Shown here piece after piece: positions 7,635-54,200 of a stretch of DNA of 64,000 nt. The stretch covers positions 17,312,013-17,376,012 of the forward strand of contig NC_092577.1 in assembly GCF_037975245.1 (NCBI RefSeq), written 5' to 3'. The notes beneath the pieces were generated by a model that was not told the DNA's origin, searched no databases, and was given only the letters and a program-made list of their open reading frames with translations. A program made the position numbers and the translations under genes. The stretch comes from Apostichopus japonicus (Eukaryota; Echinodermata; Holothuroidea; Aspidochirotida; Stichopodidae). Every line of letters starts with the position of its first letter. Positions within the stretch are counted from its first letter, which is position 1.

Positions 7635-7903
7635 GTCGTGGTGTGATACAGTGTGATACAGTGGATACAGTGTGATACAGTCGTGGCGCGGTTGGTTGTG
7701 CTCTTTGTTAGCTGTTTTCTTTGTTACTTTTTTCGAACTTACTTGTTCCACGTTTTCTTCAACCTGCAACATCCAAGTTCTTGGATGCTAGCGGGTTTTT
7801 ATTACTGTGTTTCATTTTGGACCGTTAAACTGTAGGAGTTTTGTAGGTAATTTTTGAAGTCGCCAAGGCGACGAAGGCCGCCAAGGCGTGTGCTAGTGCG
7901 AAC
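7635..7903 (+). promoter_or_regulatory. LINE copy 1 5' UTR / likely internal promoter
   Basis: The 269 nt before ORF1 hold about four GTGTGATACA-type repeats (7642-7680) between two GTCGTGG motifs. A perfect inverted repeat GTCGCCAAGGCGAC lies at 7859-7872, close to the ORF1 start. Non-LTR elements usually carry an internal promoter here; that is known for the group and not shown by this sequence. Confidence 0.6.
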
Positions 7904-9145
7904 ATGGGTTCCGCGAAACCATCAATACAACGTTTGAAAACTAACAGTGTTAGGGTATTTGACAATGGACATAGCTATGGAGACATACTGAAATCGATAT
8001 CTGAGGATCTTGGGAATAATAGAATTGTGGGATGTGTTAAGACGTCAGGGCACTGGATTGTGACATTGAAGAATGAATCTGATGCGGAACTTATCCAGGA
8101 AACCGGCCTTAATATTAAAGGCGACCATTGTAATGTTACCGGAGTGGAAAAATTTATACTAACGGTGAGTCTTTTTGGGGTACCCTGTTACATTTCTGAC
8201 GAAGAACTTTCGGCTAAGCTAGAGGAATACGGATGCTCAATTAAATCCAAATGGACGCGAAAATACTATTCCGACTATCCAGACGTGGAAAACGGTATTC
8301 GATTCGTAAGAGTACAGTTGCCAAATAATGCCAAAAGCCTGCCCTACGCAATTACGATTGCTGGTGTACATCTAAGACTTAAACACAACAGCCAATCTAA
8401 AGTCTGTAACAACTGCTTGAGCGACACCCATGTCATGAAAGAATGTCCCCAGTACGTATGTAGAGAATGTAATAACCAGGGCCACACGGAGAGCCGTTGC
8501 CCTAGGATAAAGTGCTTTAGATGCCAAAACTTTGGTCATAAAAGTTTCCTATGCACGGAGCAACCACCTGAGGAAGATAACGATGTCGAACCAGAGAAGC
8601 CTTCAGACAATGGTGAGATGGACACAGAAACTGAACCTTCTAACGTCACTGAGAGCGCCAACAAGGAAACAGTTCCCGGGGGCCCACCAGCTCAACCCAC
8701 AGTGCAACCTCCTGACACGGTAGATCAAGCCAACCGGAACAAGGACCAAATTGAGGAGACTCTGCCTACCAACACCCAGCCACAGCAGAAACAACCGAAA
8801 TCTCCCAAGAAAGCGAAGGCTACGACCACAGCGACCAAGAAAAATCCCACCGACGAAGCACAGAAATCCCGACTACAAAGAAAACCCGACTACAAACCAG
8901 GAAGTAATGGAGACACCACTGAAACTGTAAATGACTCTATGGCACACCTTAAAAGGCAGATGTCTTTGGATGAGGACAACTTCATTTTTGTAAGACACAA
9001 GAAGAAAATACCAACACCAAACCTTAGCAAGGCAAGAACCGTAACAAGCAAAAACAATCAAACCTCACTTCTATATCGTCATCGTCATCATACTCTTTCT
9101 TGTTTTAATGGATCCAACAAAAAACAAAATAGAAACAAGGGATAA
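7904..9145 (+). CDS. LINE ORF1, CCHC zinc-knuckle nucleic-acid-binding protein (copy 1)
   Basis: 413 aa. Three consecutive CX2CX4HX4C zinc knuckles occupy residues 168-181, 186-199 and 204-217. The part before them (about 80-165) may form an RRM-like fold as in other LINE ORF1 proteins; this is inference. After the knuckles comes a long acidic, Pro/Gln/Thr- and Lys-rich region (about 218-330), probably disordered, and a basic C-terminus. ORF1 proteins of this kind bind the element RNA and form the RNP that ORF2 protein works in. The ATG at 7904 is in good context (AACATGG); the frame upstream is open only back to a TAG and has no ATG. The end overlaps ORF2 by 38 nt. Confidence 0.93.
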   Translation: MGSAKPSIQRLKTNSVRVFDNGHSYGDILKSISEDLGNNRIVGCVKTSGHWIVTLKNESDAELIQETGLNIKGDHCNVTGVEKFILTVSLFGVPCYISDEELSAKLEEYGCSIKSKWTRKYYSDYPDVENGIRFVRVQLPNNAKSLPYAITIAGVHLRLKHNSQSKVCNNCLSDTHVMKECPQYVCRECNNQGHTESRCPRIKCFRCQNFGHKSFLCTEQPPEEDNDVEPEKPSDNGEMDTETEPSNVTESANKETVPGGPPAQPTVQPPDTVDQANRNKDQIEETLPTNTQPQQKQPKSPKKAKATTTATKKNPTDEAQKSRLQRKPDYKPGSNGDTTETVNDSMAHLKRQMSLDEDNFIFVRHKKKIPTPNLSKARTVTSKNNQTSLLYRHRHHTLSCFNGSNKKQNRNKG

Positions 9146-12047
9146 TATTTCCTGTGAGTATTATAACATCGATAAGTATAATAATTTACCCCCTAGTAAT
9201 GGTCTTACCATTTTCAATATGAACAGTAGGAGTCTTAACAAAAATTTTGATAATATTACCACTTTCATCTCATTACTTAATAACGAATTCTCGATCATGG
9301 GCTTTACGGAAACTTGGTTGAATGACAATAATAATACATCCATCATCAATATTAATAATTATCGACTTGTAGAAAAACACCGCCATAAAAGAAGGGGAGG
9401 TGGGGTTTGTTTATACATTAAAAAGAACTATAATTACAAATGCAGAGACGATCTCTCTGTATTTAATGACTCAATTGAGTCTCTTTTCATAGAGATCACA
9501 CCCCAAAATGGCAGTAAGCATTACGTTATTGGTATTATTTATAGACCACCGACGGGTTCTTATGACGACTTTTATTTTCATGTGCAAAACATTTATGGCA
9601 AATTAACAGAATCACGTAGTAATTCTTATATCATGGGTGATTTCAACATTAACTTACTTGACGACCACTTATCTACAGATTTCCTCAACTTAGCTTTCTC
9701 GAATAATTTTTATCCAGCAATAACAAATCCTACCCGTGTTGCAAGTACATCGTCTACTTTAATTGATAACATATTTACTAATGATAATTCTGCAATTAAC
9801 TCAGGCATATTTGTAACCGATATTACCGACCACTTTCCCATCTTCCTTGACAATAATTCAAGACTTAGAATCTATAATAGAGATAGTAAACGTATTCGTA
9901 ATTACAATATAAATAATATCAGTAATTTTATTTCCCAATTAGAATGTAAGCAATGGGATGATGTTCTTAATGAAAAGGATGCTAATGTATCCTATAATGT
10001 ATTTTTTCATCATTTTAGTGATATGTACAATGACTGTTTTCCAGTGCAGGTTATTAATGTAAGGAAGAAACGTAAAAAGAGACATCCTTGGATTACTAGT
10101 GGTATATTAAAATCAATAAAAAAGAAAAATCAATTGTATAGACGCCAATTAAAGGATCCAACATCGAATAACAAGAAGGTATACCTTATTTATCGAAATA
10201 AATTAACAAATATTATCAGAACATCAAAGAAACTATACTTTCACAGTAAATTTATCGAGAGCAATAATAACATTAATGGTACCTGGAAAACAGTCAATGA
10301 ACTCTTACATAAAAATGCCAGTCAATCGTCATATCCTACGGCCTTTCACCATAACCAAAACGTTGTCACAGACAACCAGGAAATTGCTAATGGTTTTAAC
10401 AATTACTTTGTAAATGTAGGCCCTTCACTGGCCAGCAAGATTAAACCCCTTGAAAAAGCTGAGATTTTTTTGCATAAAAGCAGAAATCCCAACCCAAACT
10501 CTGTGTTCATATTCCCCGTGACAGAAGAAGAATTACTGAAAACGATCAACACTGCAATTAAACCCAAAAAGGCTGCAGGATATGACGATTTCAGTCCTGA
10601 TATTATCAAACAGGCCGCTAAGTATATTGTCACACCACTTGCCCATATTTGTAACCTATCATTTAATACAGGTGTCTTTCCAGACAAGTTAAAAATTGCT
10701 AAAGTCTTACCAATTTACAAAAATGGCCAGAACAATGCATATGAAAATTACCGGCCAATATCGTTACTCTCTTGTTTTGCGAAACTTATAGAAAGACTAT
10801 TGTTTAATCGTATTTGTAGATTCTTGGACAAACACAACATTCTTAATAAACAACAGTACGGATTTCGATACAATCACTCCACTGAGCTCGCCCTGGCAGA
10901 TGCAATTGATAATCTCTACAGTAAACTTGATCAACGTAAGACTTGCATTGGTGTATTCCTAGACTTAAGTAAAGCGTTTGATACCATTAATCATTCTATT
11001 TTACTGAATAAGATGCACTTTAATGGTATAAGAGGTACTACTCTGAATTGGTTCGACAGCTACCTATCTCACCGTCACCAATTTACTGCGTATAAGTCAC
11101 ATAACTCTGATCTTGCCCAAGTCCCTTGTGGTGTACCACAGGGATCTATCCTGGGACCTCTGTTATTCATTATTTATGTAAACGACATATGTCAAGTGTC
11201 CAATATTGCAAAAGTTACTTTGTTTGCTGATGACACCACTATTTTTTTTGACTCTGACAACATTAGCATCCTACCTATTACTGTATCTAATGAACTAGAA
11301 AAGTTTAGTAACTGGTTTCGGTCAAACAAGCTTTCTATCAATGTCAACAAGACACACTACATTGTTTTTAATTCATCCAACAACCCTCCTCAAGTTCACA
11401 ACATTAATATGAATGGTACACCAATTAACAATGTTGACTACATAAAATTTTTAGGTGTATATATTGATTCAAAACTAAGTTGGCAACAACATATTTCAGC
11501 AATCTGTTCTAAGGTCGCAAGGAACATTGGTATACTCGCTATAATAAAACATTTCCTACCGACACACATTCTAAGAATGATTTATAATACGCTCATTCTA
11601 CCTCATCTGTCCTACTGTTCTATTATTTGGTCTGGTGCTAACATAACTTGTCTTGACCGTCTCAATAAACTACAAAAAGGCGCAATACGTAACATAACAC
11701 ATGCTGCATTTCGTCAGCATACTAGTCCATTGTTTAAAGGTCAAAACCTGCTGAAATTAAATGATATTATAAGGCTACAACTTGCTGTATTTACGTATAA
11801 AGCATGGCATGGGCTACTTCCGGGTTCCTTTCATAATTTCTATACAATTAATGTAGAATTATACAATTATAATACCCGAAATAGACAAAATGCTCATTGC
11901 AACTTCTATCATACGAAATTAGGTACACGCAGCTTTCGCAACCGTGCAACTAAGTTATGGAACTCATTAAGCAATACCGTTAAATCTAAGGCTACAAAGA
12001 ATTCATTTAAGAAATGTTTAAAAAAAGAATTGATATCATCATATTAA
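9108..12047 (+). CDS. LINE ORF2, AP endonuclease-reverse transcriptase (copy 1)
   Basis: 979 aa. The N-terminal part is an AP-type (exonuclease-endonuclease-phosphatase fold) endonuclease: NMNSRSL at 37-43, catalytic Glu in TETW (E68), GDFN at 177-180, and the terminal TDH motif (D241, H242). The reverse transcriptase follows at about 525-790: NYRPISLLS, the first catalytic Asp in FLDLSKAFD (D619), PQGSILGPLLF at 677-687, and FADD (D708, D709). The C-terminal 180 aa, ending in a basic LWNSL...FKK segment, is typical of CR1/L2/Jockey-like ORF2. The protein nicks target DNA and primes cDNA from the nick. No RNase H domain seen. The ATG lies inside the ORF1 end in the +1 frame, so translation needs reinitiation or frameshifting. 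Confidence 0.95.
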   Translation: MDPTKNKIETRDNISCEYYNIDKYNNLPPSNGLTIFNMNSRSLNKNFDNITTFISLLNNEFSIMGFTETWLNDNNNTSIININNYRLVEKHRHKRRGGGVCLYIKKNYNYKCRDDLSVFNDSIESLFIEITPQNGSKHYVIGIIYRPPTGSYDDFYFHVQNIYGKLTESRSNSYIMGDFNINLLDDHLSTDFLNLAFSNNFYPAITNPTRVASTSSTLIDNIFTNDNSAINSGIFVTDITDHFPIFLDNNSRLRIYNRDSKRIRNYNINNISNFISQLECKQWDDVLNEKDANVSYNVFFHHFSDMYNDCFPVQVINVRKKRKKRHPWITSGILKSIKKKNQLYRRQLKDPTSNNKKVYLIYRNKLTNIIRTSKKLYFHSKFIESNNNINGTWKTVNELLHKNASQSSYPTAFHHNQNVVTDNQEIANGFNNYFVNVGPSLASKIKPLEKAEIFLHKSRNPNPNSVFIFPVTEEELLKTINTAIKPKKAAGYDDFSPDIIKQAAKYIVTPLAHICNLSFNTGVFPDKLKIAKVLPIYKNGQNNAYENYRPISLLSCFAKLIERLLFNRICRFLDKHNILNKQQYGFRYNHSTELALADAIDNLYSKLDQRKTCIGVFLDLSKAFDTINHSILLNKMHFNGIRGTTLNWFDSYLSHRHQFTAYKSHNSDLAQVPCGVPQGSILGPLLFIIYVNDICQVSNIAKVTLFADDTTIFFDSDNISILPITVSNELEKFSNWFRSNKLSINVNKTHYIVFNSSNNPPQVHNINMNGTPINNVDYIKFLGVYIDSKLSWQQHISAICSKVARNIGILAIIKHFLPTHILRMIYNTLILPHLSYCSIIWSGANITCLDRLNKLQKGAIRNITHAAFRQHTSPLFKGQNLLKLNDIIRLQLAVFTYKAWHGLLPGSFHNFYTINVELYNYNTRNRQNAHCNFYHTKLGTRSFRNRATKLWNSLSNTVKSKATKNSFKKCLKKELISSY

Positions 12048-12137
12048 ATTATGTAAATGAGTTATTTACTTCAGCAGTTTCTGTTCATTATGTAACAAAC
12101 ATTCAATTTGTATTTATTCATTTTTTTTTTTTCTTTA

Positions 12138-12185
12138 GGGAGTCTTCCACTTTGTTAAGCTTTTAAGCTTTATGGAAGACTTCCC
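12138..12185 (+). other. LINE copy 1 3' UTR hairpin
   Basis: GGGAGTCTTCCA at the left pairs with TGGAAGACTTCCC at the right (one bulged base). The loop contains two AAGCTT palindromes that can pair with each other. It follows a run of 12 T and lies about 46 nt before the tail end. In several LINEs a 3' stem-loop is what the RT recognises; that role is inferred here. Confidence 0.75.
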
Positions 12186-12295
12186 TCCGCTTTGTACTTC
12201 TGTGGAAAAACAAATAAATAAATAAATAAATATATATATTAAATCCACTAATCATAACCTACCAGACAACTAGCCTACATTTCGCCTCTTGGAAT

Positions 12296-12414
12296 GTCTA
12301 CGGCCACATCACGATGACTATACCGGTTCTCGTCCGATCACCGAAGTCAAGCAACGTAGAGCGCAGTCAGTACTTGGATGGGTGACCGCCTGGGAATACT
12401 GGGTGCCGTAGGCT
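12296..12414 (+). rRNA. 5S rRNA gene (T19A)
   Basis: First gene after LINE copy 1. Long spacer follows (402 bp). Confidence 0.93.
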
Positions 12415-12697
12415 TTTATTTTCATAATTGATAACACTATGTTGCCACGACGATGAGAAATTGAAATGGCCTTCATTGTCTTTCCACAAGGAAAGTGTCT
12501 TGCCACAAGGAAAGCGATTTGAAAATCGAATATATTAATAAATACCTCGTTTGTTTTTATATATTAGAATTTTCTAGATATATATGTCAAATATAGATTA
12601 ACATAATATATATTAAATCCATTCATGTATAATTTATATATTAAATCCACTGATCATAACCTACCAGACAAGTAGCCTACATTTCACCTCTTGGAAT

Positions 12698-12818: not shown

Positions 12819-12894
12819 TTTATTTTCATAATTGATAACACTATGTTGCCACGACGATGAGAAATTGAAATGGCCTACATTGACCTCTTGTTAT

Positions 12895-14389: not shown

Positions 14390-14881
14390 TTTATTTTCAT
14401 AATTGATGACACTATGTTGCCACGACGATGAGAAATTGAAATGGCCTTCATTGTCTTTCCACAAGGAAAGTGTCTTGCCACGAGGAAAGCGATTTGAAAA
14501 TCGAATATATTAATAAATAACTCGTTTGTTTTTATATATTCGAATTTTCTACATATAGATGTAAAATATAGATTAACATAATATATATTAAATCCATTCA
14601 TGTATAATATATGTCGTGGTGTGATACAGTGTGATACAGTGGATACAGTGTGATACAGTCGTGGCGCGGTTGGTTGTGCTCTTTGTTAGCTGTTTTCTTT
14701 GTTACTTTTTTCGAACTTACTTGTTCCACGTTTTCTTCAACCTGCAACATCCAAGTTCTTGGATGCTAGCGGGTTTTTATTACTGTGTTTCATTTTGGAC
14801 CGTTAAACTGTAGGAGTTTTGTAGGTAATTTTTGAAGTCGCCAAGGCGACGAAGGCCGCCAAGGCGTGTGCTAGTGCGAAC

Positions 14882-16123
14882 ATGGGTTCCGCGAAACCAT
14901 CAATACAACGTTTGAAAACTAACAGTGTTAGGGTATTTGACAATGGACATAGCTATGGAGACATACTGAAATCGATATCTGAGGATCTTGGGAATAATAG
15001 AATTGTGTGATGTGTTAAGACGTCAGGGCACTGGATTGTGACATTGAAGAATGAATCTGATGCGGAACTTATCCAGGAAACCGGCCTTAATATTAAAGGC
15101 GACCATTGTAATGTTACCGGAGTGGAAAAATTTATACTAACGGTGAGTCTTTTTGGGGTACCCTGTTACATTTCTGACGAAGAACTTTCGGCTAAGCTAG
15201 AGGAATACGGATGCTCAATTAAATCCAAATGGACGCGAAAATACTATTCCGACTATCCAGACGTGGAAAACGGTATTCGATTCGTAAGAGTACAGTTGCC
15301 AAATAATGCCAAAAGCCTGCCCTACGCAATTACGATTGCTGGTGTACATCTAAGACTTAAACACAACAGCCAATCTAAAGTCTGTAACAACTGCTTGAGC
15401 GACACCCATGTCATGAAAGAATGTCCCCAGTACGTATGTAGAGAATGTAATAACCAGGGCCACACGGAGAGCCGTTGCCCTAGGATAAAGTGCTTTAGAT
15501 GCCAAAACTTTGGTCATAAAAGTTTCCTATGCACGGAGCAACCACCTGAGGAAGATAACGATGTCGAACCAGAGAAGCCTTCAGACAATGGTGAGATGGA
15601 CACAGAAACTGAACCTTCTAACGTCACTGAGAGCGCCAACAAGGAAACAGTTCCCGGGGGCCCACCAGCTCAACCCACAGTGCAACCTCCTGACACGGTA
15701 GATCAAGCCAACCGGAACAAGGACCAAATTGAGGAGACTCTGCCTACCAACACCCAGCCACAGCAGAAACAACCGAAATCTCCCAAGAAAGCGAAGGCTA
15801 CGACCACAGCGACCAAGAAAAATCCCACCGACGAAGCACAGAAATCCCGACTACAAAGAAAACCCGACTACAAACCAGGAAGTAATGGAGACACCACTGA
15901 AACTGTAAATGACTCTATGGCACACCTTAAAAGGCAGATGTCTTTGGATGAGGACAACTTCATTTTTGTAAGACACAAGAAGAAAATACCAACACCAAAC
16001 CTTAGCAAGGCAAGAACCGTAACAAGCAAAAACAATCAAACCTCACTTCTATATCGTCATCGTCATCATACTCTTTCTTGTTTTAATGGATCCAACAAAA
16101 AACAAAATAGAAACAAGGGATAA
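14882..16123 (+). pseudogene. LINE ORF1 with premature stop (copy 2)
   Basis: Otherwise the same as copy 1 ORF1, but codon 43 (Gly, GGA) is TGA at 15008-15010, leaving 42 aa and removing all three zinc knuckles. The rest of the frame stays open to 16123, so the mutation is recent. Confidence 0.93.
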
Positions 16124-19026
16124 TATTTCCTGTGAGTATTATAACATCGATAAGTATAATAATTTACCCCCTAGTAATGGTCTTACCATTTTCAATATGA
16201 ACAGTAGGAGTCTTAACAAAAATTTTGATAATATTACCACTTTCATCTCATTACTTAATAACGAATTCTCGATCATGGGCTTTACGGAAACTTGGTTGAA
16301 TGACAATAATAATACATCCATCATCAATATTAATAATTATCGACTTGTAGAAAAACACCGCCATAAAAGAAGGGGAGGTGGGGTTTGTTTATACATTAAA
16401 AAGAACTATAATTACAAATGCAGAGACGATCTCTCTGTATTTAATGACTCAATTGAGTCTCTTTTCATAGAGATCACACCCCAAAATGGCAGTAAGCATT
16501 ACGTTATTGGTATTATTTATAGACCACCGACGGGTTCTTATGACGACTTTTATTTTCATGTGCAAAACATTTATGGCAAATTAACAGAATCACGTAGTAA
16601 TTCTTATATCATGGGTGATTTCAACATTAACTTACTTGACGACCACTTATCTACAGATTTCCTCAACTTAGCTTTCTCGAATAATTTTTATCCAGCAATA
16701 ACAAATCCTACCCGTGTTGCAAGTACATCGTCTACTTTAATTGATAACATATTTACTAATGATAATTCTGCAATTAACTCAGGCATATTTGTAACCGATA
16801 TTACCGACCACTTTCCCATCTTCCTTGACAATAATTCAAGACTTAGAATCTATAATAGAGATAGTAAACGTATTCGTAATTACAATATAAATAATATCAG
16901 TAATTTTATTTCCCAATTAGAATGTAAGCAATGGGATGATGTTCTTAATGAAAAGGATGCTAATGTATCCTATAATGTATTTTTTCATCATTTTAGTGAT
17001 ATGTACAATGACTGTTTTCCAGTGCAGGTTATTAATGTAAGGAAGAAACGTAAAAAGAGACATCCTTGGATTACTAGTGGTATATTAAAATCAATAAAAA
17101 AGAAAAATCAATTGTATAGACGCCAATTAAAGGATCCAACATCGAATAACAAGAAGGTATACCTTATTTATCGAAATAAATTAACAAATATTATCAGAAC
17201 ATCAAAGAAACTATACTTTCACAGTAAATTTATCGAGAGCAATAATAACATTAATGGTACCTGGAAAACAGTCAATGAACTCTTACATAAAAATGCCAGT
17301 CAATCGTCATATCCTACGGCCTTTCACCATAACCAAAACGTTGTCACAGACAACCAGGAAATTGCTAATGGTTTTAACAATTACTTTGTAAATGTAGGCC
17401 CTTCACTGGCCAGCAAGATTAAACCCCTTGAAAAAGCTGAGATTTTTTTGCATAAAAGCAGAAATCCCAACCCAAACTCTGTGTTCATATTCCCCGTGAC
17501 AGAAGAAGAATTACTGAAAACGATCAACACTGCAATTAAACCCAAAAAGGCTGCAGGATATGACGATTTCAGTCCTGATATTATCAAACAGGCCGCTAAG
17601 TATATTGTCACACCACTTGCCCATATTTGTAACCTATCATTTAATACAGGTGTCTTTCCAGACAAGTTAAAAATTGCTAAAGTCTTACCAATTTACAAAA
17701 ATGGCCAGAACAATGCATATGAAAATTACCGGCCAATATCGTTACTCTCTTGTTTTGCGAAACTTATAGAAAGACTATTGTTTAATCGTATTTGTAGATT
17801 CTTGGACAAACACAACATTCTTAATAAACAACAGTACGGATTTCGATACAATCACTCCACTGAGCTCGCCCTGGCAGATGCAATTGATAATCTCTACAGT
17901 AAACTTGATCAACGTAAGACTTGCATTGGTGTATTCCTAGACTTAAGTAAAGCGTTTGATACCATTAATCATTCTATTTTACTGAATAAGATGCACTTTA
18001 ATGGTATAAGAGGTACTACTCTGAATTGGTTCGACAGCTACCTATCTCACCGTCACCAATTTACTGCGTATAAGTCACATAACTCTGATCTTGCCCAAGT
18101 CCCTTGTGGTGTACCACAGGGATCTATCCTGGGACCTCTGTTATTCATTATTTATGTAAACGACATATGTCAAGTGTCCAATATTGCAAAAGTTACTTTG
18201 TTTGCTGATGACACCACTATTTTTTTTTGACTCTGACAACATTAGCATCCTACCTATTACTGTATCTAATGAACTAGAAAAGTTTAGTAACTGGTTTCGG
18301 TCAAACAAGCTTTCTATCAATGTCAACAAGACACACTACATTGTTTTTAATTCATCCAACAACCCTCCTCAAGTTCACAACATTAATATGAATGGTACAC
18401 CAATTAACAATGTTGACTACATAAAATTTTTAGGTGTATATATTGATTCAAAACTAAGTTGGCAACAACATATTTCAGCAATCTGTTCTAAGGTCGCAAG
18501 GAACATTGGTATACTCGCTATAATAAAACATTTCCTACCGACACACATTCTAAGAATGATTTATAATACGCTCATTCTACCTCATCTGTCCTACTGTTCT
18601 ATTATTTGGTCTGGTGCTAACATAACTTGTCTTGACCGTCTCAATAAACTACAAAAAGGCGCAATACGTAACATAACACATGCTGCATTTCGTCAGCATA
18701 CTAGTCCATTGTTTAAAGGTCAAAACCTGCTGAAATTAAATGATATTATAAGGCTACAACTTGCTGTATTTACGTATAAAGCATGGCATGGGCTACTTCC
18801 GGGTTCCTTTCATAATTTCTATACAATTAATGTAGAATTATACAATTATAATACCCGAAATAGACAAAATGCTCATTGCAACTTCTATCATACGAAATTA
18901 GGTACACGCAGCTTTCGCAACCGTGCAACTAAGTTATGGAACTCATTAAGCAATACCGTTAAATCTAAGGCTACAAAGAATTCATTTAAGAAATGTTTAA
19001 AAAAAGAATTGATATCATCATATTAA
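16086..19026 (+). pseudogene. LINE ORF2 with frameshift (copy 2)
   Basis: The T-run after the FADD motif (18220-18228) has nine T instead of eight. The reading frame breaks after residue 714, five residues past the catalytic Asp pair, losing the thumb-like and C-terminal region (about 265 aa). The rest continues in another frame to 19026 without further damage. A homopolymer indel can also be a sequencing error, but the independent stop in ORF1 supports a dead copy. Confidence 0.9.
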
Positions 19027-19115
19027 ATTATGTAAATGAGTTATTTACTTCAGCAGTTTCTGTTCATTATGTAACAAACATTCAATTTGTATTTATTCAT
19101 TTTTTTTTTTCTTTA

Positions 19116-19163
19116 GGGAGTCTTCCACTTTGTTAAGCTTTTAAGCTTTATGGAAGACTTCCC
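19116..19163 (+). other. LINE copy 2 3' UTR hairpin
   Basis: Same stem-loop as in copy 1, unchanged despite the broken ORFs. Confidence 0.75.
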
Positions 19164-19273
19164 TCCGCTTTGTACTTCTGTGGAAAAACAAATAAATAAA
19201 TAAATAAATATATATATTAAATCCACTAATCATAACCTACCAGACAACTAGCCTACATTTCGCCTCTTGGAAT

Positions 19274-19392
19274 GTCTACGGCCACATCACGATGACTATA
19301 CCGGTTCTCGTCCGATCACCGAAGTCAAGCAACGTAGAGCGCAGTCAGTACTTGGATGGGTCACCGCCTGGGAATACTGGGTGCCGTAGGCT
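19274..19392 (+). rRNA. 5S rRNA gene (T19A, G89C)
   Basis: First gene after LINE copy 2. GGATGGGTCACC at 19362 changes a base inside the box C segment; private to this gene. Long spacer follows. Confidence 0.9.
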
Positions 19393-19675
19393 TTTATTTT
19401 CATAATTGATAACACTATGTTGCCACGACGATGAGAAATTGAAATGGCCTTCATTGTCTTTCCACAAGGAAAGTGTCTTGCCACAAGGAAAGCGATTTGA
19501 AAATCGAATATATTAATAAATACCTCGTTTGTTTTTATATATTAGAATTTTCTAGATATATATGTCAAATATAGATTAACATAATATATATTAAATCCAT
19601 TCATGTATAATTTATATATTAAATCCACTGATCATAACCTACCAGACAAGTAGCCTACATTTCACCTCTTGGAAT

Positions 19676-24896: not shown

Positions 24897-25388
24897 TTTA
24901 TTTTCATAATTGATAACACTATGTTGCCACGACGATGAGAAATTGAAATGGCCTTCATTGTCTTTCCACAAGGAAAGTGTCTTGCCACGAGGAAAGCGAT
25001 TTGAAAATCGAATATATTAATAAATAACTCGTTTGTTTTTATATATTAGAATTTTCTACATATAGATGTAAAATATAGATTAACATAATATATATTAAAT
25101 CCATTCATGTATAATATATGTCGTGGTGTGATACAGTGTGATACAGTGGATACAGTGTGATACAGTCGTGGCGCGGTTGGTTGTGCTCTTTGTTAGCTGT
25201 TTTCTTTGTTACTTTTTTCGAACTTACTTGTTCCACGTTTTCTTCAACCTGCAACATCCAAGTTCTTGGATGCTAGCGGGTTTTTATTACTGTGTTTCAT
25301 TTTGGACCGTTAAACTGTAGGAGTTTTGTAGGTAATTTTTGAAGTCGCCAAGGCGACGAAGGCCGCCAAGGCGTGTGCTAGTGCGAAC

Positions 25389-29532: not shown

Positions 29533-29622
29533 ATTATGTAAATGAGTTATTTACTTCAGCAGTTTCTGTTCATTATGTAACAAACATTCAATTTGTATTT
29601 ATTCATTTTTTTTTTTTCTTTA

Positions 29623-29670
29623 GGGAGTCTTCCACTTTGTTAAGCTTTTAAGCTTTATGGAAGACTTCCC
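29623..29670 (+). other. LINE copy 3 3' UTR hairpin
   Basis: Same 48-nt stem-loop as in copy 1, after 12 T. Confidence 0.75.
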
Positions 29671-29780
29671 TCCGCTTTGTACTTCTGTGGAAAAACAAAT
29701 AAATAAATAAATAAATATATATATTAAATCCACTAATCATAACCTACCAGACAACTAGCCTACATTTCGCCTCTTGGAAT

Positions 29781-29899
29781 GTCTACGGCCACATCACGAT
29801 GACTATACCGGTTCTCGTCCGATCACCGAAGTCAAGCAACGTAGAGCGCAGTCAGTACTTGGATGGGTGACCGCCTGGGAATACTGGGTGCCGTAGGCT
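29781..29899 (+). rRNA. 5S rRNA gene (T19A)
   Basis: First gene after LINE copy 3. The long spacer that follows has the TGCCACAAGG marker. Confidence 0.93.
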
Positions 29900-36208: not shown

Positions 36209-36700
36209 TTTATTTTCATAATTGATAACACTATGTTGCCACGACGATGAGAAATTGAAATGGCCTTCATTGTCTTTCCACAAGGAAAGTGTCTTGCCAC
36301 GAGGAAAGCGATTTGAAAATCGAATATATTAATAAATAACTCGTTTGTTTTTATATATTAGAATTTTCTACATATAGATGTAAAATATAGATTAACATAA
36401 TATATATTAAATCCATTCATGTATAATATATGTCGTGGTGTGATACAGTGTGATACAGTGGATACAGTGTGATACAGTCGTGGCGCGGTTGGTTGTGCTC
36501 TTTGTTAGCTGTTTTCTTTGTTACTTTTTTCGAACTTACTTGTTCCACGTTTTCTTCAACCTGCAACATCCAAGTTCTTGGATGCTAGCGGGTTTTTATT
36601 ACTGTGTTTCATTTTGGACCGTTAAACTGTAGGAGTTTTGTAGGTAATTTTGGAAGTCGCCAAGGCGACGAAGGCCGCCAAGGCGTGTGCTAGTGCGAAC

Positions 36701-37942: not shown

Positions 37943-40844
37943 TATTTCCTGTGAGTATTATAACATCGATAAGTATAATAATTTACCCCCTAGTAATGGT
38001 CTTACCATTTTCAATATGAACAGTAGGAGTCTTAACAAAAATTTTGATAATATTACCACTTTCATCTCATTACTTAATAACGAATTCTCGATCATGGGCT
38101 TTACGGAAACTTGGTTGAATGACAATAATAATACATCCATCATCAATATTAATAATTATCGACTTGTAGAAAAACACCGCCATAAAAGAAGGGGAGGTGG
38201 GGTTTGTTTATACATTAAAAAGAACTATAATTACAAATGCAGAGACGATCTCTCTGTATTTAATGACTCAATTGAGTCTCTTTTCATAGAGATCACACCC
38301 CAAAATGGCAGTAAGCATTACGTTATTGGTATTATTTATAGACCACCGACGGGTTCTTATGACGACTTTTATTTTCATGTGCAAAACATTTATGGCAAAT
38401 TAACAGAATCACGTAGTAATTCTTATATCATGGGTGATTTCAACATTAACTTACTTGACGACCACTTATCTACAGATTTCCTCAACTTAGCTTTCTCGAA
38501 TAATTTTTATCCAGCAATAACAAATCCTACCCGTGTTGCAAGTACATCGTCTACTTTAATTGATAACATATTTACTAATGATAATTCTGCAATTAACTCA
38601 GGCATATTTGTAACCGATATTACCGACCACTTTCCCATCTTCCTTGACAATAATTCAAGACTTAGAATCTATAATAGAGATAGTAAACGTATTCGTAATT
38701 ACAATATAAATAATATCAGTAATTTTATTTCCCAATTAGAATGTAAGCAATGGGATGATGTTCTTAATGAAAAGGATGCTAATGTATCCTATAATGTATT
38801 TTTTCATCATTTTAGTGATATGTACAATGACTGTTTTCCAGTGCAGGTTATTAATGTAAGGAAGAAACGTAAAAAGAGACATCCTTGGATTACTAGTGGT
38901 ATATTAAAATCAATAAAAAAGAAAAATCAATTGTATAGACGCCAATTAAAGGATCCAACATCGAATAACAAGAAGGTATACCTTATTTATCGAAATAAAT
39001 TAACAAATATTATCAGAACATCAAAGAAACTATACTTTCACAGTAAATTTATCGAGAGCAATAATAACATTAATGGTACCTGGAAAACAGTCAATGAACT
39101 CTTACATAAAAATGCCAGTCAATCGTCATATCCTACGGCCTTTCACCATAACCAAAACGTTGTCACAGACAACCAGGAAATTGCTAATGGTTTTAACAAT
39201 TACTTTGTAAATGTAGGCCCTTCACTGGCCAGCAAGATTAAACCCCTTGAAAAAGCTGAGATTTTTTTGCATAAAAGCAGAAATCCCAACCCAAACTCTG
39301 TGTTCATATTCCCCGTGACAGAAGAAGAATTACTGAAAACGATCAACACTGCAATTAAACCCAAAAAGGCTGCAGGATATGACGATTTCAGTCCTGATAT
39401 TATCAAACAGGCCGCTAAGTATATTGTCACACCACTTGCCCATATTTGTAACCTATCATTTAATACAGGTGTCTTTCCAGACAAGTTAAAAATTGCTAAA
39501 GTCTTACCAATTTACAAAAATGGCCAGAACAATGCATATGAAAATTACCGGCCAATATCGTTACTCTCTTGTTTTGCGAAACTTATAGAAAGACTATTGT
39601 TTAATCGTATTTGTAGATTCTTGGACAAACACAACATTCTTAATAAACAACAGTACGGATTTCGATACAATCACTCCACTGAGCTCGCCCTGGCAGATGC
39701 AATTGATAATCTCTACAGTAAACTTGATCAACGTAAGACTTGCATTGGTGTATTCCTAGACTTAAGTAAAGCGTTTGATACCATTAATCATTCTATTTTA
39801 CTGAATAAGATGCACTTTAATGGTATAAGAGGTACTACTCTGAATTGGTTCGACAGCTACCTATCTCACCGTCACCAATTTACTGCGTATAAGTCACATA
39901 ACTCTGATCTTGCCCAAGTCCCTTGTGGTGTACCACAGGGATCTATCCTGGGACCTCTGTTATTCATTATTTATGTAAACGACATATGTCAAGTGTCCAA
40001 TATTGCAAAAGTTACTTTGTTTGCTGATGACACCACTATTTTTTTTGACTCTGACAACATTAGCATCCTACCTATTACTGTATCTAATGAACTAGAAAAG
40101 TTTAGTAACTGGTTTCGGTCAAACAAGCTTTCTATCAATGTCAACAAGACACACTACATTGTTTTTAATTCATCCAACAACCCTCCTCAAGTTCACAACA
40201 TTAATATGAATGGTACACCAATTAACAATGTTGACTACATAAAATTTTTAGGTGTATATATTGATTCAAAACTAAGTTGGCAACAACATATTTCAGCAAT
40301 CTGTTCTAAGGTCGCAAGGAACATTGGTATACTCGCTATAATAAAACATTTCCTACCGACACACATTCTAAGAATGATTTATAATACGCTCATTCTACCT
40401 CATCTGTCCTACTGTTCTATTATTTGGTCTGGTGCTAACATAACTTGTCTTGACCGTCTCAATAAACTACAAAAAGGCGCAATACGTAACATAACACATG
40501 CTGCATTTCGTCAGCATACTAGTCCATTGTTTAAAGGTCAAAACCTGCTGAAATTAAATGATATTATAAGGCTACAACTTGCTGTATTTACGTATAAAGC
40601 ATGGCATGGGCTACTTCCGGGTTCCTTTCATAATTTCTATACAATTAATGTAGAATTATACAATTATAATACCCGAAATAGACAAAATGCTCATTGCAAC
40701 TTCTATCATACGAAATTAGGTACACGCAGCTTTCGCAACCGTGCAACTAAGTTATGGAACTCATTAAGCAATACCGTTAAATCTAAGGCTACAAAGAATT
40801 CATTTAAGAAATGTTTAAAAAAAGAATTGATATCATCATATTAA
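37905..40844 (+). CDS. LINE ORF2, endonuclease-reverse transcriptase (copy 4)
   Basis: 979 aa, identical in protein sequence to copies 1 and 5, with E68, D178, D241/H242 in the endonuclease and D619, D708, D709 in the RT. The eight-T run after FADD is intact. Confidence 0.95.
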   Translation: MDPTKNKIETRDNISCEYYNIDKYNNLPPSNGLTIFNMNSRSLNKNFDNITTFISLLNNEFSIMGFTETWLNDNNNTSIININNYRLVEKHRHKRRGGGVCLYIKKNYNYKCRDDLSVFNDSIESLFIEITPQNGSKHYVIGIIYRPPTGSYDDFYFHVQNIYGKLTESRSNSYIMGDFNINLLDDHLSTDFLNLAFSNNFYPAITNPTRVASTSSTLIDNIFTNDNSAINSGIFVTDITDHFPIFLDNNSRLRIYNRDSKRIRNYNINNISNFISQLECKQWDDVLNEKDANVSYNVFFHHFSDMYNDCFPVQVINVRKKRKKRHPWITSGILKSIKKKNQLYRRQLKDPTSNNKKVYLIYRNKLTNIIRTSKKLYFHSKFIESNNNINGTWKTVNELLHKNASQSSYPTAFHHNQNVVTDNQEIANGFNNYFVNVGPSLASKIKPLEKAEIFLHKSRNPNPNSVFIFPVTEEELLKTINTAIKPKKAAGYDDFSPDIIKQAAKYIVTPLAHICNLSFNTGVFPDKLKIAKVLPIYKNGQNNAYENYRPISLLSCFAKLIERLLFNRICRFLDKHNILNKQQYGFRYNHSTELALADAIDNLYSKLDQRKTCIGVFLDLSKAFDTINHSILLNKMHFNGIRGTTLNWFDSYLSHRHQFTAYKSHNSDLAQVPCGVPQGSILGPLLFIIYVNDICQVSNIAKVTLFADDTTIFFDSDNISILPITVSNELEKFSNWFRSNKLSINVNKTHYIVFNSSNNPPQVHNINMNGTPINNVDYIKFLGVYIDSKLSWQQHISAICSKVARNIGILAIIKHFLPTHILRMIYNTLILPHLSYCSIIWSGANITCLDRLNKLQKGAIRNITHAAFRQHTSPLFKGQNLLKLNDIIRLQLAVFTYKAWHGLLPGSFHNFYTINVELYNYNTRNRQNAHCNFYHTKLGTRSFRNRATKLWNSLSNTVKSKATKNSFKKCLKKELISSY

Positions 40845-40934
40845 ATTATGTAAATGAGTTATTTACTTCAGCAGTTTCTGTTCATTATGTAACAAACATT
40901 CAATTTGTATTTATTCATTTTTTTTTTTTCTTTA

Positions 40935-40982
40935 GGGAGTCTTCCACTTTGTTAAGCTTTTAAGCTTTATGGAAGACTTCCC
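40935..40982 (+). other. LINE copy 4 3' UTR hairpin
   Basis: Same 48-nt stem-loop as in copy 1, after 12 T. Confidence 0.75.
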
Positions 40983-41084
40983 TCCGCTTTGTACTTCTGT
41001 GGAAAAACAAATAAATAAATATATATATTAAATCCACTAATCATAACCTACCAGACAACTAGCCTACATTTCGCCTCTTGGAAT

Positions 41085-41203
41085 GTCTACGGCCACATCA
41101 CGATGACTATACCGGTTCTCGTCCGATCACCGAAGTCAAGCAACGTAGAGCGCAGTCAGTACTTGGATGGGTGACCGCCTGGGAATACTGGGTGCCGTAG
41201 GCT
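41085..41203 (+). rRNA. 5S rRNA gene (T19A)
   Basis: First gene after LINE copy 4, followed by a short spacer (195 bp), unlike the first gene after the other LINE copies. Confidence 0.93.
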
Positions 41204-41279
41204 TTTATTTTCATAATTGATAACACTATGTTGCCACGACGATGAGAAATTGAAATGGCCTACATTGACCTCTTGTTAT

Positions 41280-49316: not shown

Positions 49317-49808
49317 TTTATTTTCATAATTGATAACACTATGTTGCCACGACGATGAGAAATTGAAATGGCCTTCATTGTCTTTCCACAAGGAAAGTGT
49401 CTTGCCACGAGGAAAGCGATTTGAAAATCGAATATATTAATAAATAACTCGTTTGTTTTTATATATTAGAATTTTCTACATATAGATGTAAAATATAGAT
49501 TAACATAATATATATTAAATCCATTCATGTATAATATATGTCGTGGTGTGATACAGTGTGATACAGTGGATACAGTGTGATACAGTCGTGGCGCGGTTGG
49601 TTGTGCTCCTTGTTAGCTGTTTTCTTTGTTACTTTTTTCGAACTTACTTGTTCCACGTTTTCTTCAACCTGCAACATCCAAGTTCTTGGATGCTAGCGGG
49701 TTTTTATTACTGTGTTTCATTTTGGACCGTTAAACTGTAGGAGTTTTGTAGGTAATTTTTGAAGTCGCCAAGGCGACGAAGGCCGCCAAGGCGTGTGCTA
49801 GTGCGAAC

Positions 49809-51050
49809 ATGGGTTCCGCGAAACCATCAATACAACGTTTGAAAACTAACAGTGTTAGGGTATTTGACAATGGACATAGCTATGGAGACATACTGAAATC
49901 GATATCTGAGGATCTTGGGAATAATAGAATTGTGGGATGTGTTAAGACGTCAGGGCACTGGATTGTGACATTGAAGAATGAATCTGATGCGGAACTTATC
50001 CAGGAAACCGGCCTTAATATTAAAGGCGACCATTGTAATGTTACCGGAGTGGAAAAATTTATACTAACGGTGAGTCTTTTTGGGGTACCCTGTTACATTT
50101 CTGACGAAGAACTTTCGGCTAAGCTAGAGGAATACGGATGCTCAATTAAATCCAAATGGACGCGAAAATACTATTCCGACTATCCAGACGTGGAAAACGG
50201 TATTCGATTCGTAAGAGTACAGTTGCCAAATAATGCCAAAAGCCTGCCCTACGCAATTACGATTGCTGGTGTACATCTAAGACTTAAACACAACAGCCAA
50301 TCTAAAGTCTGTAACAACTGCTTGAGCGACACCCATGTCATGAAAGAATGTCCCCAGTACGTATGTAGAGAATGTAATAACCAGGGCCACACGGAGAGCC
50401 GTTGCCCTAGGATAAAGTGCTTTAGATGCCAAAACTTTGGTCATAAAAGTTTCCTATGCACGGAGCAACCACCTGAGGAAGATAACGATGTCGAACCAGA
50501 GAAGCCTTCAGACAATGGTGAGATGGACACAGAAACTGAACCTTCTAACGTCACTGAGAGCGCCAACAAGGAAACAGTTCCCGGGGGCCCACCAGCTCAA
50601 CCCACAGTGCAACCTCCTGACACGGTAGATCAAGCCAACCGGAACAAGGACCAAATTGAGGAGACTCTGCCTACCAACACCCAGCCACAGCAGAAACAAC
50701 CGAAATCTCCCAAGAAAGCGAAGGCTACGACCACAGCGACCAAGAAAAATCCCACCGACGAAGCACAGAAATCCCGACTACAAAGAAAACCCGACTACAA
50801 ACCAGGAAGTAATGGAGACACCACTGAAACTGTAAATGACTCTATGGCACACCTTAAAAGGCAGATGTCTTTGGATGAGGACAACTTCATTTTTGTAAGA
50901 CACAAGAAGAAAATACCAACACCAAACCTTAGCAAGGCAAGAACCGTAACAAGCAAAAACAATCAAACCTCACTTCTATATCGTCATCGTCATCATACTC
51001 TTTCTTGTTTTAATGGATCCAACAAAAAACAAAATAGAAACAAGGGATAA
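49809..51050 (+). CDS. LINE ORF1, CCHC zinc-knuckle protein (copy 5)
   Basis: 413 aa, same protein as copies 1, 3 and 4, with the three CCHC knuckles at residues 168-217. The last 38 nt overlap ORF2. Confidence 0.93.
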   Translation: MGSAKPSIQRLKTNSVRVFDNGHSYGDILKSISEDLGNNRIVGCVKTSGHWIVTLKNESDAELIQETGLNIKGDHCNVTGVEKFILTVSLFGVPCYISDEELSAKLEEYGCSIKSKWTRKYYSDYPDVENGIRFVRVQLPNNAKSLPYAITIAGVHLRLKHNSQSKVCNNCLSDTHVMKECPQYVCRECNNQGHTESRCPRIKCFRCQNFGHKSFLCTEQPPEEDNDVEPEKPSDNGEMDTETEPSNVTESANKETVPGGPPAQPTVQPPDTVDQANRNKDQIEETLPTNTQPQQKQPKSPKKAKATTTATKKNPTDEAQKSRLQRKPDYKPGSNGDTTETVNDSMAHLKRQMSLDEDNFIFVRHKKKIPTPNLSKARTVTSKNNQTSLLYRHRHHTLSCFNGSNKKQNRNKG

Positions 51051-53952
51051 TATTTCCTGTGAGTATTATAACATCGATAAGTATAATAATTTACCCCCTA
51101 GTAATGGTCTTACCATTTTCAATATGAACAGTAGGAGTCTTAACAAAAATTTTGATAATATTACCACTTTCATCTCATTACTTAATAACGAATTCTCGAT
51201 CATGGGCTTTACGGAAACTTGGTTGAATGACAATAATAATACATCCATCATCAATATTAATAATTATCGACTTGTAGAAAAACACCGCCATAAAAGAAGG
51301 GGAGGTGGGGTTTGTTTATACATTAAAAAGAACTATAATTACAAATGCAGAGACGATCTCTCTGTATTTAATGACTCAATTGAGTCTCTTTTCATAGAGA
51401 TCACACCCCAAAATGGCAGTAAGCATTACGTTATTGGTATTATTTATAGACCACCGACGGGTTCTTATGACGACTTTTATTTTCATGTGCAAAACATTTA
51501 TGGCAAATTAACAGAATCACGTAGTAATTCTTATATCATGGGTGATTTCAACATTAACTTACTTGACGACCACTTATCTACAGATTTCCTCAACTTAGCT
51601 TTCTCGAATAATTTTTATCCAGCAATAACAAATCCTACCCGTGTTGCAAGTACATCGTCTACTTTAATTGATAACATATTTACTAATGATAATTCTGCAA
51701 TTAACTCAGGCATATTTGTAACCGATATTACCGACCACTTTCCCATCTTCCTTGACAATAATTCAAGACTTAGAATCTATAATAGAGATAGTAAACGTAT
51801 TCGTAATTACAATATAAATAATATCAGTAATTTTATTTCCCAATTAGAATGTAAGCAATGGGATGATGTTCTTAATGAAAAGGATGCTAATGTATCCTAT
51901 AATGTATTTTTTCATCATTTTAGTGATATGTACAATGACTGTTTTCCAGTGCAGGTTATTAATGTAAGGAAGAAACGTAAAAAGAGACATCCTTGGATTA
52001 CTAGTGGTATATTAAAATCAATAAAAAAGAAAAATCAATTGTATAGACGCCAATTAAAGGATCCAACATCGAATAACAAGAAGGTATACCTTATTTATCG
52101 AAATAAATTAACAAATATTATCAGAACATCAAAGAAACTATACTTTCACAGTAAATTTATCGAGAGCAATAATAACATTAATGGTACCTGGAAAACAGTC
52201 AATGAACTCTTACATAAAAATGCCAGTCAATCGTCATATCCTACGGCCTTTCACCATAACCAAAACGTTGTCACAGACAACCAGGAAATTGCTAATGGTT
52301 TTAACAATTACTTTGTAAATGTAGGCCCTTCACTGGCCAGCAAGATTAAACCCCTTGAAAAAGCTGAGATTTTTTTGCATAAAAGCAGAAATCCCAACCC
52401 AAACTCTGTGTTCATATTCCCCGTGACAGAAGAAGAATTACTGAAAACGATCAACACTGCAATTAAACCCAAAAAGGCTGCAGGATATGACGATTTCAGT
52501 CCTGATATTATCAAACAGGCCGCTAAGTATATTGTCACACCACTTGCCCATATTTGTAACCTATCATTTAATACAGGTGTCTTTCCAGACAAGTTAAAAA
52601 TTGCTAAAGTCTTACCAATTTACAAAAATGGCCAGAACAATGCATATGAAAATTACCGGCCAATATCGTTACTCTCTTGTTTTGCGAAACTTATAGAAAG
52701 ACTATTGTTTAATCGTATTTGTAGATTCTTGGACAAACACAACATTCTTAATAAACAACAGTACGGATTTCGATACAATCACTCCACTGAGCTCGCCCTG
52801 GCAGATGCAATTGATAATCTCTACAGTAAACTTGATCAACGTAAGACTTGCATTGGTGTATTCCTAGACTTAAGTAAAGCGTTTGATACCATTAATCATT
52901 CTATTTTACTGAATAAGATGCACTTTAATGGTATAAGAGGTACTACTCTGAATTGGTTCGACAGCTACCTATCTCACCGTCACCAATTTACTGCGTATAA
53001 GTCACATAACTCTGATCTTGCCCAAGTCCCTTGTGGTGTACCACAGGGATCTATCCTGGGACCTCTGTTATTCATTATTTATGTAAACGACATATGTCAA
53101 GTGTCCAATATTGCAAAAGTTACTTTGTTTGCTGATGACACCACTATTTTTTTTGACTCTGACAACATTAGCATCCTACCTATTACTGTATCTAATGAAC
53201 TAGAAAAGTTTAGTAACTGGTTTCGGTCAAACAAGCTTTCTATCAATGTCAACAAGACACACTACATTGTTTTTAATTCATCCAACAACCCTCCTCAAGT
53301 TCACAACATTAATATGAATGGTACACCAATTAACAATGTTGACTACATAAAATTTTTAGGTGTATATATTGATTCAAAACTAAGTTGGCAACAACATATT
53401 TCAGCAATCTGTTCTAAGGTCGCAAGGAACATTGGTATACTCGCTATAATAAAACATTTCCTACCGACACACATTCTAAGAATGATTTATAATACGCTCA
53501 TTCTACCTCATCTGTCCTACTGTTCTATTATTTGGTCTGGTGCTAACATAACTTGTCTTGACCGTCTCAATAAACTACAAAAAGGCGCAATACGTAACAT
53601 AACACATGCTGCATTTCGTCAGCATACTAGTCCATTGTTTAAAGGTCAAAACCTGCTGAAATTAAATGATATTATAAGGCTACAACTTGCTGTATTTACG
53701 TATAAAGCATGGCATGGGCTACTTCCGGGTTCCTTTCATAATTTCTATACAATTAATGTAGAATTATACAATTATAATACCCGAAATAGACAAAATGCTC
53801 ATTGCAACTTCTATCATACGAAATTAGGTACACGCAGCTTTCGCAACCGTGCAACTAAGTTATGGAACTCATTAAGCAATACCGTTAAATCTAAGGCTAC
53901 AAAGAATTCATTTAAGAAATGTTTAAAAAAAGAATTGATATCATCATATTAA
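51013..53952 (+). CDS. LINE ORF2, endonuclease-reverse transcriptase (copy 5)
   Basis: 979 aa, identical in protein sequence to copies 1 and 4; all endonuclease and RT catalytic motifs are present and the eight-T run after FADD is intact. Confidence 0.95.
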   Translation: MDPTKNKIETRDNISCEYYNIDKYNNLPPSNGLTIFNMNSRSLNKNFDNITTFISLLNNEFSIMGFTETWLNDNNNTSIININNYRLVEKHRHKRRGGGVCLYIKKNYNYKCRDDLSVFNDSIESLFIEITPQNGSKHYVIGIIYRPPTGSYDDFYFHVQNIYGKLTESRSNSYIMGDFNINLLDDHLSTDFLNLAFSNNFYPAITNPTRVASTSSTLIDNIFTNDNSAINSGIFVTDITDHFPIFLDNNSRLRIYNRDSKRIRNYNINNISNFISQLECKQWDDVLNEKDANVSYNVFFHHFSDMYNDCFPVQVINVRKKRKKRHPWITSGILKSIKKKNQLYRRQLKDPTSNNKKVYLIYRNKLTNIIRTSKKLYFHSKFIESNNNINGTWKTVNELLHKNASQSSYPTAFHHNQNVVTDNQEIANGFNNYFVNVGPSLASKIKPLEKAEIFLHKSRNPNPNSVFIFPVTEEELLKTINTAIKPKKAAGYDDFSPDIIKQAAKYIVTPLAHICNLSFNTGVFPDKLKIAKVLPIYKNGQNNAYENYRPISLLSCFAKLIERLLFNRICRFLDKHNILNKQQYGFRYNHSTELALADAIDNLYSKLDQRKTCIGVFLDLSKAFDTINHSILLNKMHFNGIRGTTLNWFDSYLSHRHQFTAYKSHNSDLAQVPCGVPQGSILGPLLFIIYVNDICQVSNIAKVTLFADDTTIFFDSDNISILPITVSNELEKFSNWFRSNKLSINVNKTHYIVFNSSNNPPQVHNINMNGTPINNVDYIKFLGVYIDSKLSWQQHISAICSKVARNIGILAIIKHFLPTHILRMIYNTLILPHLSYCSIIWSGANITCLDRLNKLQKGAIRNITHAAFRQHTSPLFKGQNLLKLNDIIRLQLAVFTYKAWHGLLPGSFHNFYTINVELYNYNTRNRQNAHCNFYHTKLGTRSFRNRATKLWNSLSNTVKSKATKNSFKKCLKKELISSY

Positions 53953-54042
53953 ATTATGTAAATGAGTTATTTACTTCAGCAGTTTCTGTTCATTATGTAA
54001 CAAACATTCAATTTGTATTTATTCATATTTTTTTTTTCTTTA

Positions 54043-54090
54043 GGGAGTCTTCCACTTTGTTAAGCTTTTAAGCTTTATGGAAGACTTCCC
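54043..54090 (+). other. LINE copy 5 3' UTR hairpin
   Basis: Same 48-nt stem-loop; the T-run in front of it is interrupted by one A. Confidence 0.75.
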
Positions 54091-54200
54091 TCCGCTTTGT
54101 ACTTCTGTGGAAAAACAAATAAATAAATAAATAAATATATATATTAAATCCACTAATCATAACCTACCAGACAACTAGCCTACATTTCGCCTCTTGGAAT

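Follow-up and report, generated by a model that had tools for sequence, protein, structure and literature searches.

LINE copies in a 5S rRNA gene array

The stretch of Apostichopus japonicus DNA analysed here, hereafter the window, comprises 64,000 nucleotides (C17:17312013–17376012 in the 672-Mb assembly) and consists of tandem 5S rRNA genes interrupted by five copies of a LINE.

1–64000, + strand: 5S rRNA gene array, from Rfam RF00001 matches, the unit table and a 5S motif
7635–12231, + strand: LINE copy 1, with an (AAAT)5 tail
7904–9145, + strand: ORF1 of copy 1, 413 aa, with three CCHC knuckles recognised by eye
9108–12047, + strand: ORF2 of copy 1, 979 aa, with endonuclease (PF03372) and reverse transcriptase (PF00078) domains
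14613–19209, + strand: LINE copy 2, with ORF1 and ORF2 both interrupted
25120–29716, + strand: LINE copy 3
36432–41020, + strand: LINE copy 4, with a tail two AAAT units shorter
49540–54136, + strand: LINE copy 5

Rfam RF00001 gave 132 matches on the + strand of the window, and the 5S motif was found 121 times on the + strand and 0 times on the – strand. The array units are mostly about 402, 197 and 187 bp in length. In many 5S genes (window 361, 745, 1547, 1951 and others), the two bases GG are inserted near position 96 (GGGGGAATAC); these genes are possibly pseudogenes retained in the array.

Four of the five LINE copies are 4597 bp long and copy 4 is 4589 bp. All five lie on the + strand. 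As the first-pass annotation had stated, they share one orientation, each begins 342 bp after the start of a 5S gene with the variants C12T and T114C, and the gene preceding the host unit is of the T19A type in all five cases. The latter is weak evidence by itself, since 11 of the 16 LINE-free C12T+T114C genes in the window, counted on the unit table, also follow a T19A gene.

The 5′-junction pattern matched the 672-Mb assembly 12 times in forward orientation, always on C17 in the interval 17.2758–17.5543 Mb; the reverse strand and the reversed control each gave 0 matches. Probes from the 5′ end, the reverse transcriptase region and the 3′ end each gave these same 12 array places. The 12 copies, five of them in the window, span 283 kb of one 5S array, a copy number that comes from a single assembly and could be inflated or collapsed by assembly. 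We examined all 12 with their flanks, in the window and in seven 10-kb stretches (L001–L007). The 5′ end of the LINE (window 7635–7680) reads GTCGTGG(TGTGATACAG)n followed by a second GTCGTGG. Searched alone, this 5′ stretch was found at 12 places in the assembly, all in the C17 5S array, and its first 27 bases, searched with a tolerance of up to 2 mismatches, matched nowhere outside the 12 array copies.

ORF1 of copy 1 matched no Pfam family. PF03372 and PF00078 are the only domains found in the array ORF2. An APE-type endonuclease plus a reverse transcriptase, with no RNase H, would be expected of a Jockey/CR1-type LINE, a type for which the array LINE is a candidate. Both ORFs are open in 10 of the 12 array copies, the exceptions being window copy 2 and L005. 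The array copies are mostly intact in this respect. By contrast, the two ORFs are not both open in any of three long copies examined from elsewhere in the lineage (two of which represent one duplicated locus).

Common origin of the array copies

The junctions and neighbouring units of the LINE comprise the following features.

7631–7634, + strand: left target duplication ATAT of copy 1, 4 bp
12232–12235, + strand: right target duplication ATAT of copy 1, 4 bp
12296–12697, + strand: marker unit after copy 1, with the variants TGCCACAAGG and TATAATTTATA
19274–19675, + strand: marker unit after copy 2, with G89C in the 5S gene
29781–30182, + strand: marker unit after copy 3
41085–41279, + strand: 195-bp unit after copy 4, without the marker variants
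54201–54600, + strand: marker unit after copy 5, a 400-bp form
58388–58789, + strand: exact empty-site unit, 402 bp, with 0 differences from the host unit minus the LINE and minus 4 bp

All 12 array copies share the same 5′ junction, the same 3′ junction and a 4-bp ATAT duplication on both sides. Target duplications differing from copy to copy had been named beforehand as a finding that would speak against a single insertion; the ATAT at 12 of 12 copies contradicts that case. Given the AT-rich insertion site, the true duplication could be somewhat longer than 4 bp. In the host unit, the 342 bp to the left of the LINE are identical in nine copies and carry 1–2 substitutions in the other three, and the 64 bp to its right are identical in all 12. 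Besides the exact empty site, another unit type with six copies is one base off the predicted empty-site sequence.

The flanking units share rare variants. TGCCACAAGG and TATAATTTATA were confirmed after window copies 1, 2, 3 and 5 and are absent after copy 4. Among the 239 LINE-free units of the window and the seven 10-kb stretches, 11 carry both variants, and each of these 11 directly follows a LINE; conversely, 11 of the 12 array LINEs are followed by a marker unit. The check proposed beforehand, to compare the flanks of the genomic copies, revealed common private variants in 11 of the 12 5S-flanked copies. The 195-bp unit type following copy 4 was also found twice away from LINEs, and the 400-bp marker unit type of copy 5 also follows all 7 copies outside the window. 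A string of six unit types [10,2,4,3,1,5] lies downstream of 7 of the 12 copies, whereas the unit strings on the left side vary, indicating that the exchange points differ between copies.

The LINE sequence itself points the same way. Set against the majority of 18 dispersed loci, the array LINE has C at position 3442 versus T in 7 of 7 dispersed copies scored, T at 4451 versus A in 17 of 17, and C at 4485 versus A in 13 and T in one of 14. At 2374 it also has its own state, on thin data; two further positions that came up in this comparison, 3570 and 3741, are not private to the array. By context match, the states at 2374, 3442 and 4451 are present in all 12 array copies; the match for 4485 fails in one copy, which has a change of its own four bases away. 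Since the founder variants are present in all array copies and absent from the dispersed ones scored, the array copies descend from one founder; likewise, the absence of 3442C and 4451T from the dispersed copies scored means that none of those descends from the array founder. A single origin is thus shown, as are the shared flanks, the empty site and, among the dispersed copies scored, the lack of any founder variant.

The mean pairwise substitution divergence among the 12 array copies is 0.035%, and the 18 dispersed loci differ by 0.19%–2.00% from their own majority. Differences among the array copies are mostly singletons: 7 of the 12 have private changes, one substitution (3616) is common to two copies, one T-run deletion is common to three, and the array copies W1 and L002 have zero differences from the majority. 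Judged from these sequences, the singleton pattern fits a recent expansion better than long homogenisation.

From the common junctions, the ATAT, the marker units, the unit strings and the founder variants, we consider it very probable that the LINE, a hybrid as described below, inserted once in the 5S spacer and was then multiplied within the array together with its neighbours, which upholds the single insertion and joint copying proposed in the first-pass annotation. Two further parts of that proposal stand in modified form. It had described the LINE as amplified and homogenised; amplification holds, and homogenisation is not evident from the differences, which are mostly singletons and fit recent expansion. 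It had also named unequal exchange as the route; copying within the array holds, and exchange is what we infer for the route, rather than, for example, reinsertion of circles. In this model, a young LINE of the dispersed lineage inserted once into the 5S spacer, in an AT-rich part that lies 64 bp before the following 5S gene. The insertion left a 4-bp duplication, and target-primed reverse transcription is its presumed chemistry. The unit and its neighbours were then multiplied to 12 copies over 283 kb, by unequal exchange or by some other mechanism at work in the array.

We weighed two other explanations of the array copies. A site-specific LINE that recognised the spacer site and inserted there independently several times would account for the same position and orientation of all copies, and the relatives of its 5′ part are indeed site-specific inside 5S genes. 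Against it, the unusual 5′ stretch is common to the 12 copies and found nowhere else in the assembly, the 12 copies share private LINE variants and 11 of them private flank variants, and the young dispersed copies occupy other sites and are truncated at varied points. Given the founder variants, the unique 5′ stretch and the sites of the dispersed copies, we reject repeated targeted insertion as scarcely credible. Alternatively, the assembler might have repeated a few real copies, as would suit near-identical copies in a hard region, two of which (W1 and L002) lack any difference from the majority. However, seven of the 12 copies are distinguished by one or more private changes, the left-side unit strings vary and the spacings differ, which makes such an assembly expansion very unlikely.

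The repetition of a LINE within a 5S array has a close precedent in Tribolium freemani, where Jockey-like LINE segments of ~5 kb are described as regularly interrupting the 5S array, with slightly more divergent copies outside the array and homogenisation by concerted evolution inferred (PMC11202950). The two systems are alike in having LINEs repeated in a 5S array; by the published description they differ in that a satellite is also part of the T. freemani array (PMC11202950), and the tests of junctions, duplication and empty site and the hybrid ORF1 belong to the A. japonicus array. In the A. japonicus array the founder, the empty site and the differing exchange contexts are all visible, which makes it a clean case of mobile-element multiplication in rDNA.

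Composition of the array LINE

Judged by sequence comparison, the array LINE is a hybrid of two LINE families, which is newly found here; the first-pass annotation correctly recognised one LINE family in five 5S units and missed the hybrid nature. In copy 1, the parts are as follows.

7635–8762, + strand: 5′ part of the hybrid, the first ~1.13 kb with the 5′UTR and most of ORF1
8753–8765, + strand: hybrid junction as found in the array lineage, where a deletion bordered by CTC spans an older junction, recognised by eye
8760–12231, + strand: 3′ part of the hybrid, LINE positions 1126–4597

Over LINE positions 46–1128, identity is 98.4% to the donor element at C11:67 kb, 95.8% to that at C17:23.10 Mb and 95.7% to that at C17:22.70 Mb. 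The donor elements carry a different ORF2 downstream; that of the C11 element is open for 1308 codons and has endonuclease, reverse transcriptase and zf-RVT domains. Positions 1126–4597, in turn, share 93% identity with the LINE at C7:850 kb, which has its own ORF1, and this 3′ part is about 99% identical to long dispersed copies. The 5′ part with the ORF1 DNA is 67% identical to the C7:850 kb LINE, and the 3′ part gave no DNA match to the C11 donor element. The ORF2 products of the array LINE and the donor family are 25% identical over 348 aa. In ORF1 of copy 1, about the first 286 aa are of the donor family and the remainder is native. The 5′ part is rare, with four dispersed places at ≥94% besides the array; the native ORF1 turned up on C7 and C9 and, in a more distant form, on C2.

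A hybrid junction is present at three independent loci, namely the array, C8 and a duplicated C14/C19 locus. L008 (C8), L012 and L013 have a common older junction, with ~108 bp more on the donor side and ~18 bp more on the native side, which the deletion removed from the array copy; L012 and L013 are the one duplicated locus (C14/C19), so the older junction represents two independent loci. Its presence at C8 and C14/C19 indicates that the hybrid predates the array insertion and had already moved by then. At the older junction, the 5′UTR and ORF1 N-terminus of the donor meet the native LINE, which contributes the C-terminus of ORF1, the whole of ORF2 and the 3′ end. The native parent is a LINE without a fixed site of this kind, and the donor parent a family residing in 5S, tRNA-Gly and tRNA-like repeats. 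The hybrid moved as a lineage of its own, and the array founder carries one further deletion across the junction.

We rejected two other readings. Splicing might cause the differences between hybrid junctions; by eye, the short microhomologies there fit simple deletions better. A native LINE might also have landed in a donor element resident at the 5S site. The right flank, however, consists of ordinary 5S spacer and matches the empty site exactly, which leaves no donor remainder at the array site. None of the donor loci examined holds a donor element split by a native LINE.

Exchange of ORF1 between LINE lineages has been reported, with a proposed route in which a 5′-truncated LINE lands inside another element (PMC4120745). 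The array LINE resembles the cases described there in that the ORF1 of one element is joined to the ORF2 of another, and the proposed route would fit. Unlike those cases as described, relatives of both parents are present here at 93%–98% and their ORF2 are about 25% identical. One genome thus holds the hybrid together with relatives of both its parents.

Target sites of the donor family

The donor family, presumably of the Tx1 type by the motifs we associate with that clade, has its sites within 5S genes, in tRNA-Gly genes arranged in tandem and in a 155-bp repeat that we take to be tRNA-like from A-box- and B-box-like strings noted by eye.

In the 5S genes, the left flanks of donor copies stop at 5S position 41 (C17:22.70 and 23.10 Mb) and the right flanks resume at position 27–28 (C17:22.67 and 23.10 Mb), corresponding to a duplication of about 14 bp; the copy at C17:23.10 Mb alone shows both sides, and the pieces at 22.67 and 22.70 Mb have one 5S side each. 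These two pieces seemingly come from one donor element that has been split (L039 and L010; positions 1–3538 and 3531 on, ~32 kb apart). The donor family accordingly has a fixed site in the 5S gene, as Mutsu does, with a counter-example at C17:17.15 Mb, where a copy has 5S flanks with different junctions. The stretch at C17:23.10 Mb belongs to a second, diverged 5S cluster (L011, L029, L030), the units of which are mostly 90%–98% identical to the main ones; it includes a change of orientation and the donor element within a 5S gene.

5S genes are not the only target of the donor family, as copies in tRNA-Gly genes and in the 155-bp repeat attest. Two copies on C15 (7.58 and 7.60 Mb; L038 and L043) lie inside tandem tRNA-Gly(TCC) genes, of which the stretches examined hold 33 and 12; one of these insertions has a duplication of about 13–14 bp, by eye. 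Donor copies on C11 and C19 lie within the 155-bp tandem repeat, which gave no tRNA match by Rfam or ARAGORN. This repeat was seen at C11:60–77 kb (L009, L032, L028) and also on C14, C19, C20, C21, C4 and C22; among the matches listed, several lie near contig ends. The repeat and the 5′ end of the donor have ~26–30 bp in common, as if the donor elements had picked up their 5′ end from it.

Target-specific non-LTR elements described in zebrafish include Mutsu in 5S genes, Dewa in the tRNA-Leu spacer and Keno in U2 (PMC3706591). The donor family is like Mutsu in lying inside 5S genes, in having two ORFs and in its length of about 5.5 kb (PMC11202950; PMC3706591). Compared by description rather than by sequence, it is unlike Mutsu in residing also in tRNA-Gly genes and the 155-bp repeat, and the array LINE is unlike Mutsu in its spacer site and its different ORF2.

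Dispersed copies and nearness to Pol III arrays

Dispersed copies of the array LINE lineage are 97%–99% identical to it and have AAAT tails and other flanks; most lack their 5′ end, with truncation points that vary. As 40 of 563 first-look candidates from a 3′ probe were scored, the dispersed copies number at least those examined. Going by the position of its copies, the array LINE does not qualify as a 5S-specific element as usually understood, with independent insertions at a fixed 5S-gene site; we found one founding insertion, in the spacer.

We compiled 19 young loci, that is, 18 dispersed loci and the 5S array. L013 (a duplicate of L012) and L022 and L050 (duplicates of L021; L050 is 99.0% identical to L021 over 1756 bp) were left out, as were the presumed duplicates C9:35584342, C21:447297 and C22:11952706 and the older copies L027, L047 and L049 (92%–95%), which have no such array. 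Flanks were covered for about 340–600 bp on most sides, and for L048 on the right side only. Four of the 19 loci are located in 5S, tRNA or 155-bp arrays or no more than 300 bp away from one: the C17 5S array; C3:17.766 Mb (L025), within tandem tRNA genes that ARAGORN assigns to Lys; C21:0.444 Mb, within an array of the 155-bp repeat; and C8:27.89 Mb, adjoining a 155-bp array. The other 15 have no such array in the flank examined; one of these, L017, has a tRNA-like match 130 bp away (41.9 bits) that looks like a dispersed repeat and was left out of the four.

For comparison, 40 random 1.2-kb windows from 16 contigs (494 of 672 Mb), scanned by Rfam and BLAST and not by ARAGORN, included 0 with a tRNA, 5S gene or 155-bp repeat; one (L069) has a weak 70-bp match of 76% to the 5S spacer. 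Nine distant-relative loci, seven of them covered on the 3′ side only, have no such array either. The difference between 4/19 and 0/40 gave a Fisher p of 0.0085, a post hoc value with small n, as the test was conceived after the hits had been seen. With the distant relatives added (4/19 versus 0/49), p is 0.0048; with L017 and one distant locus counted and L036 left out, 5/19 versus 1/49 gives p 0.0055.

The hybrid origin makes an old question testable, namely whether ORF1 chooses the locus and ORF2 only makes the nick. The grafted ORF1 might tether the hybrid to Pol III arrays, where the endonuclease of the other parent would cut the nearby AT-rich spacer. The donor sites in 5S genes, tRNA-Gly genes and the tRNA-like repeat are consistent with this idea, as is the enrichment among the young loci. 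A model for it is TRE5-A of Dictyostelium, a non-LTR element near tRNA and 5S genes the ORF1 of which is reported to contact TFIIIB; TRE5 integrates preferentially 40–54 bp upstream of tRNA genes (PMC5911963). Unlike TRE5 as described there, the A. japonicus lineage lies near arrays at a minority of loci and at varied distances, with no set-distance targeting among the 19 loci.

Several observations weigh against tethering by ORF1. Fifteen of the 19 young loci are without such an array in the flank, the idea preceded the control, and p rises to 0.019 with one array-near locus fewer. The copies on C3 and C21 are 5′ truncated, so that the mobilising ORF1 is not readable from them. The tRNA likeness of the 155-bp repeat was recognised by eye only, and in the control two of the nine distant loci have a tRNA-like match (L036, 41.9 bits; L054, 30.7 bits) and another, L055, has no LINE end. 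We therefore regard tethering as a tentative and rather unlikely explanation. Landing of the hybrid by chance in a large array is in our judgement probable, in keeping with most young insertions examined being away from such arrays; the enrichment near Pol III arrays, if upheld, would count against it. It is accordingly doubtful that the ORF1 swap gave the LINE a new address in 5S, tRNA and tRNA-like arrays, where exchange would then multiply mostly intact copies without retrotransposition. Were ORF1 retargeting true, the hybrid would be a natural experiment separating tethering (ORF1) from cutting (ORF2).

In the open-licence literature searched, we found no case in which an element specific for Pol III arrays had formed a hybrid with another LINE and the hybrid had been multiplied in a 5S array.

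In the tRNA array on C3 (17.761–17.777 Mb), the genes are spaced at about 170 bp and occur on both strands, and the young LINE copy sits between the two gene orientations. At this locus (L025) and at L020, the left flank and the 5′ end of the LINE are separated by AT-rich stretches in which pieces of the target recur, as if these stretches had arisen during 5′ joining.
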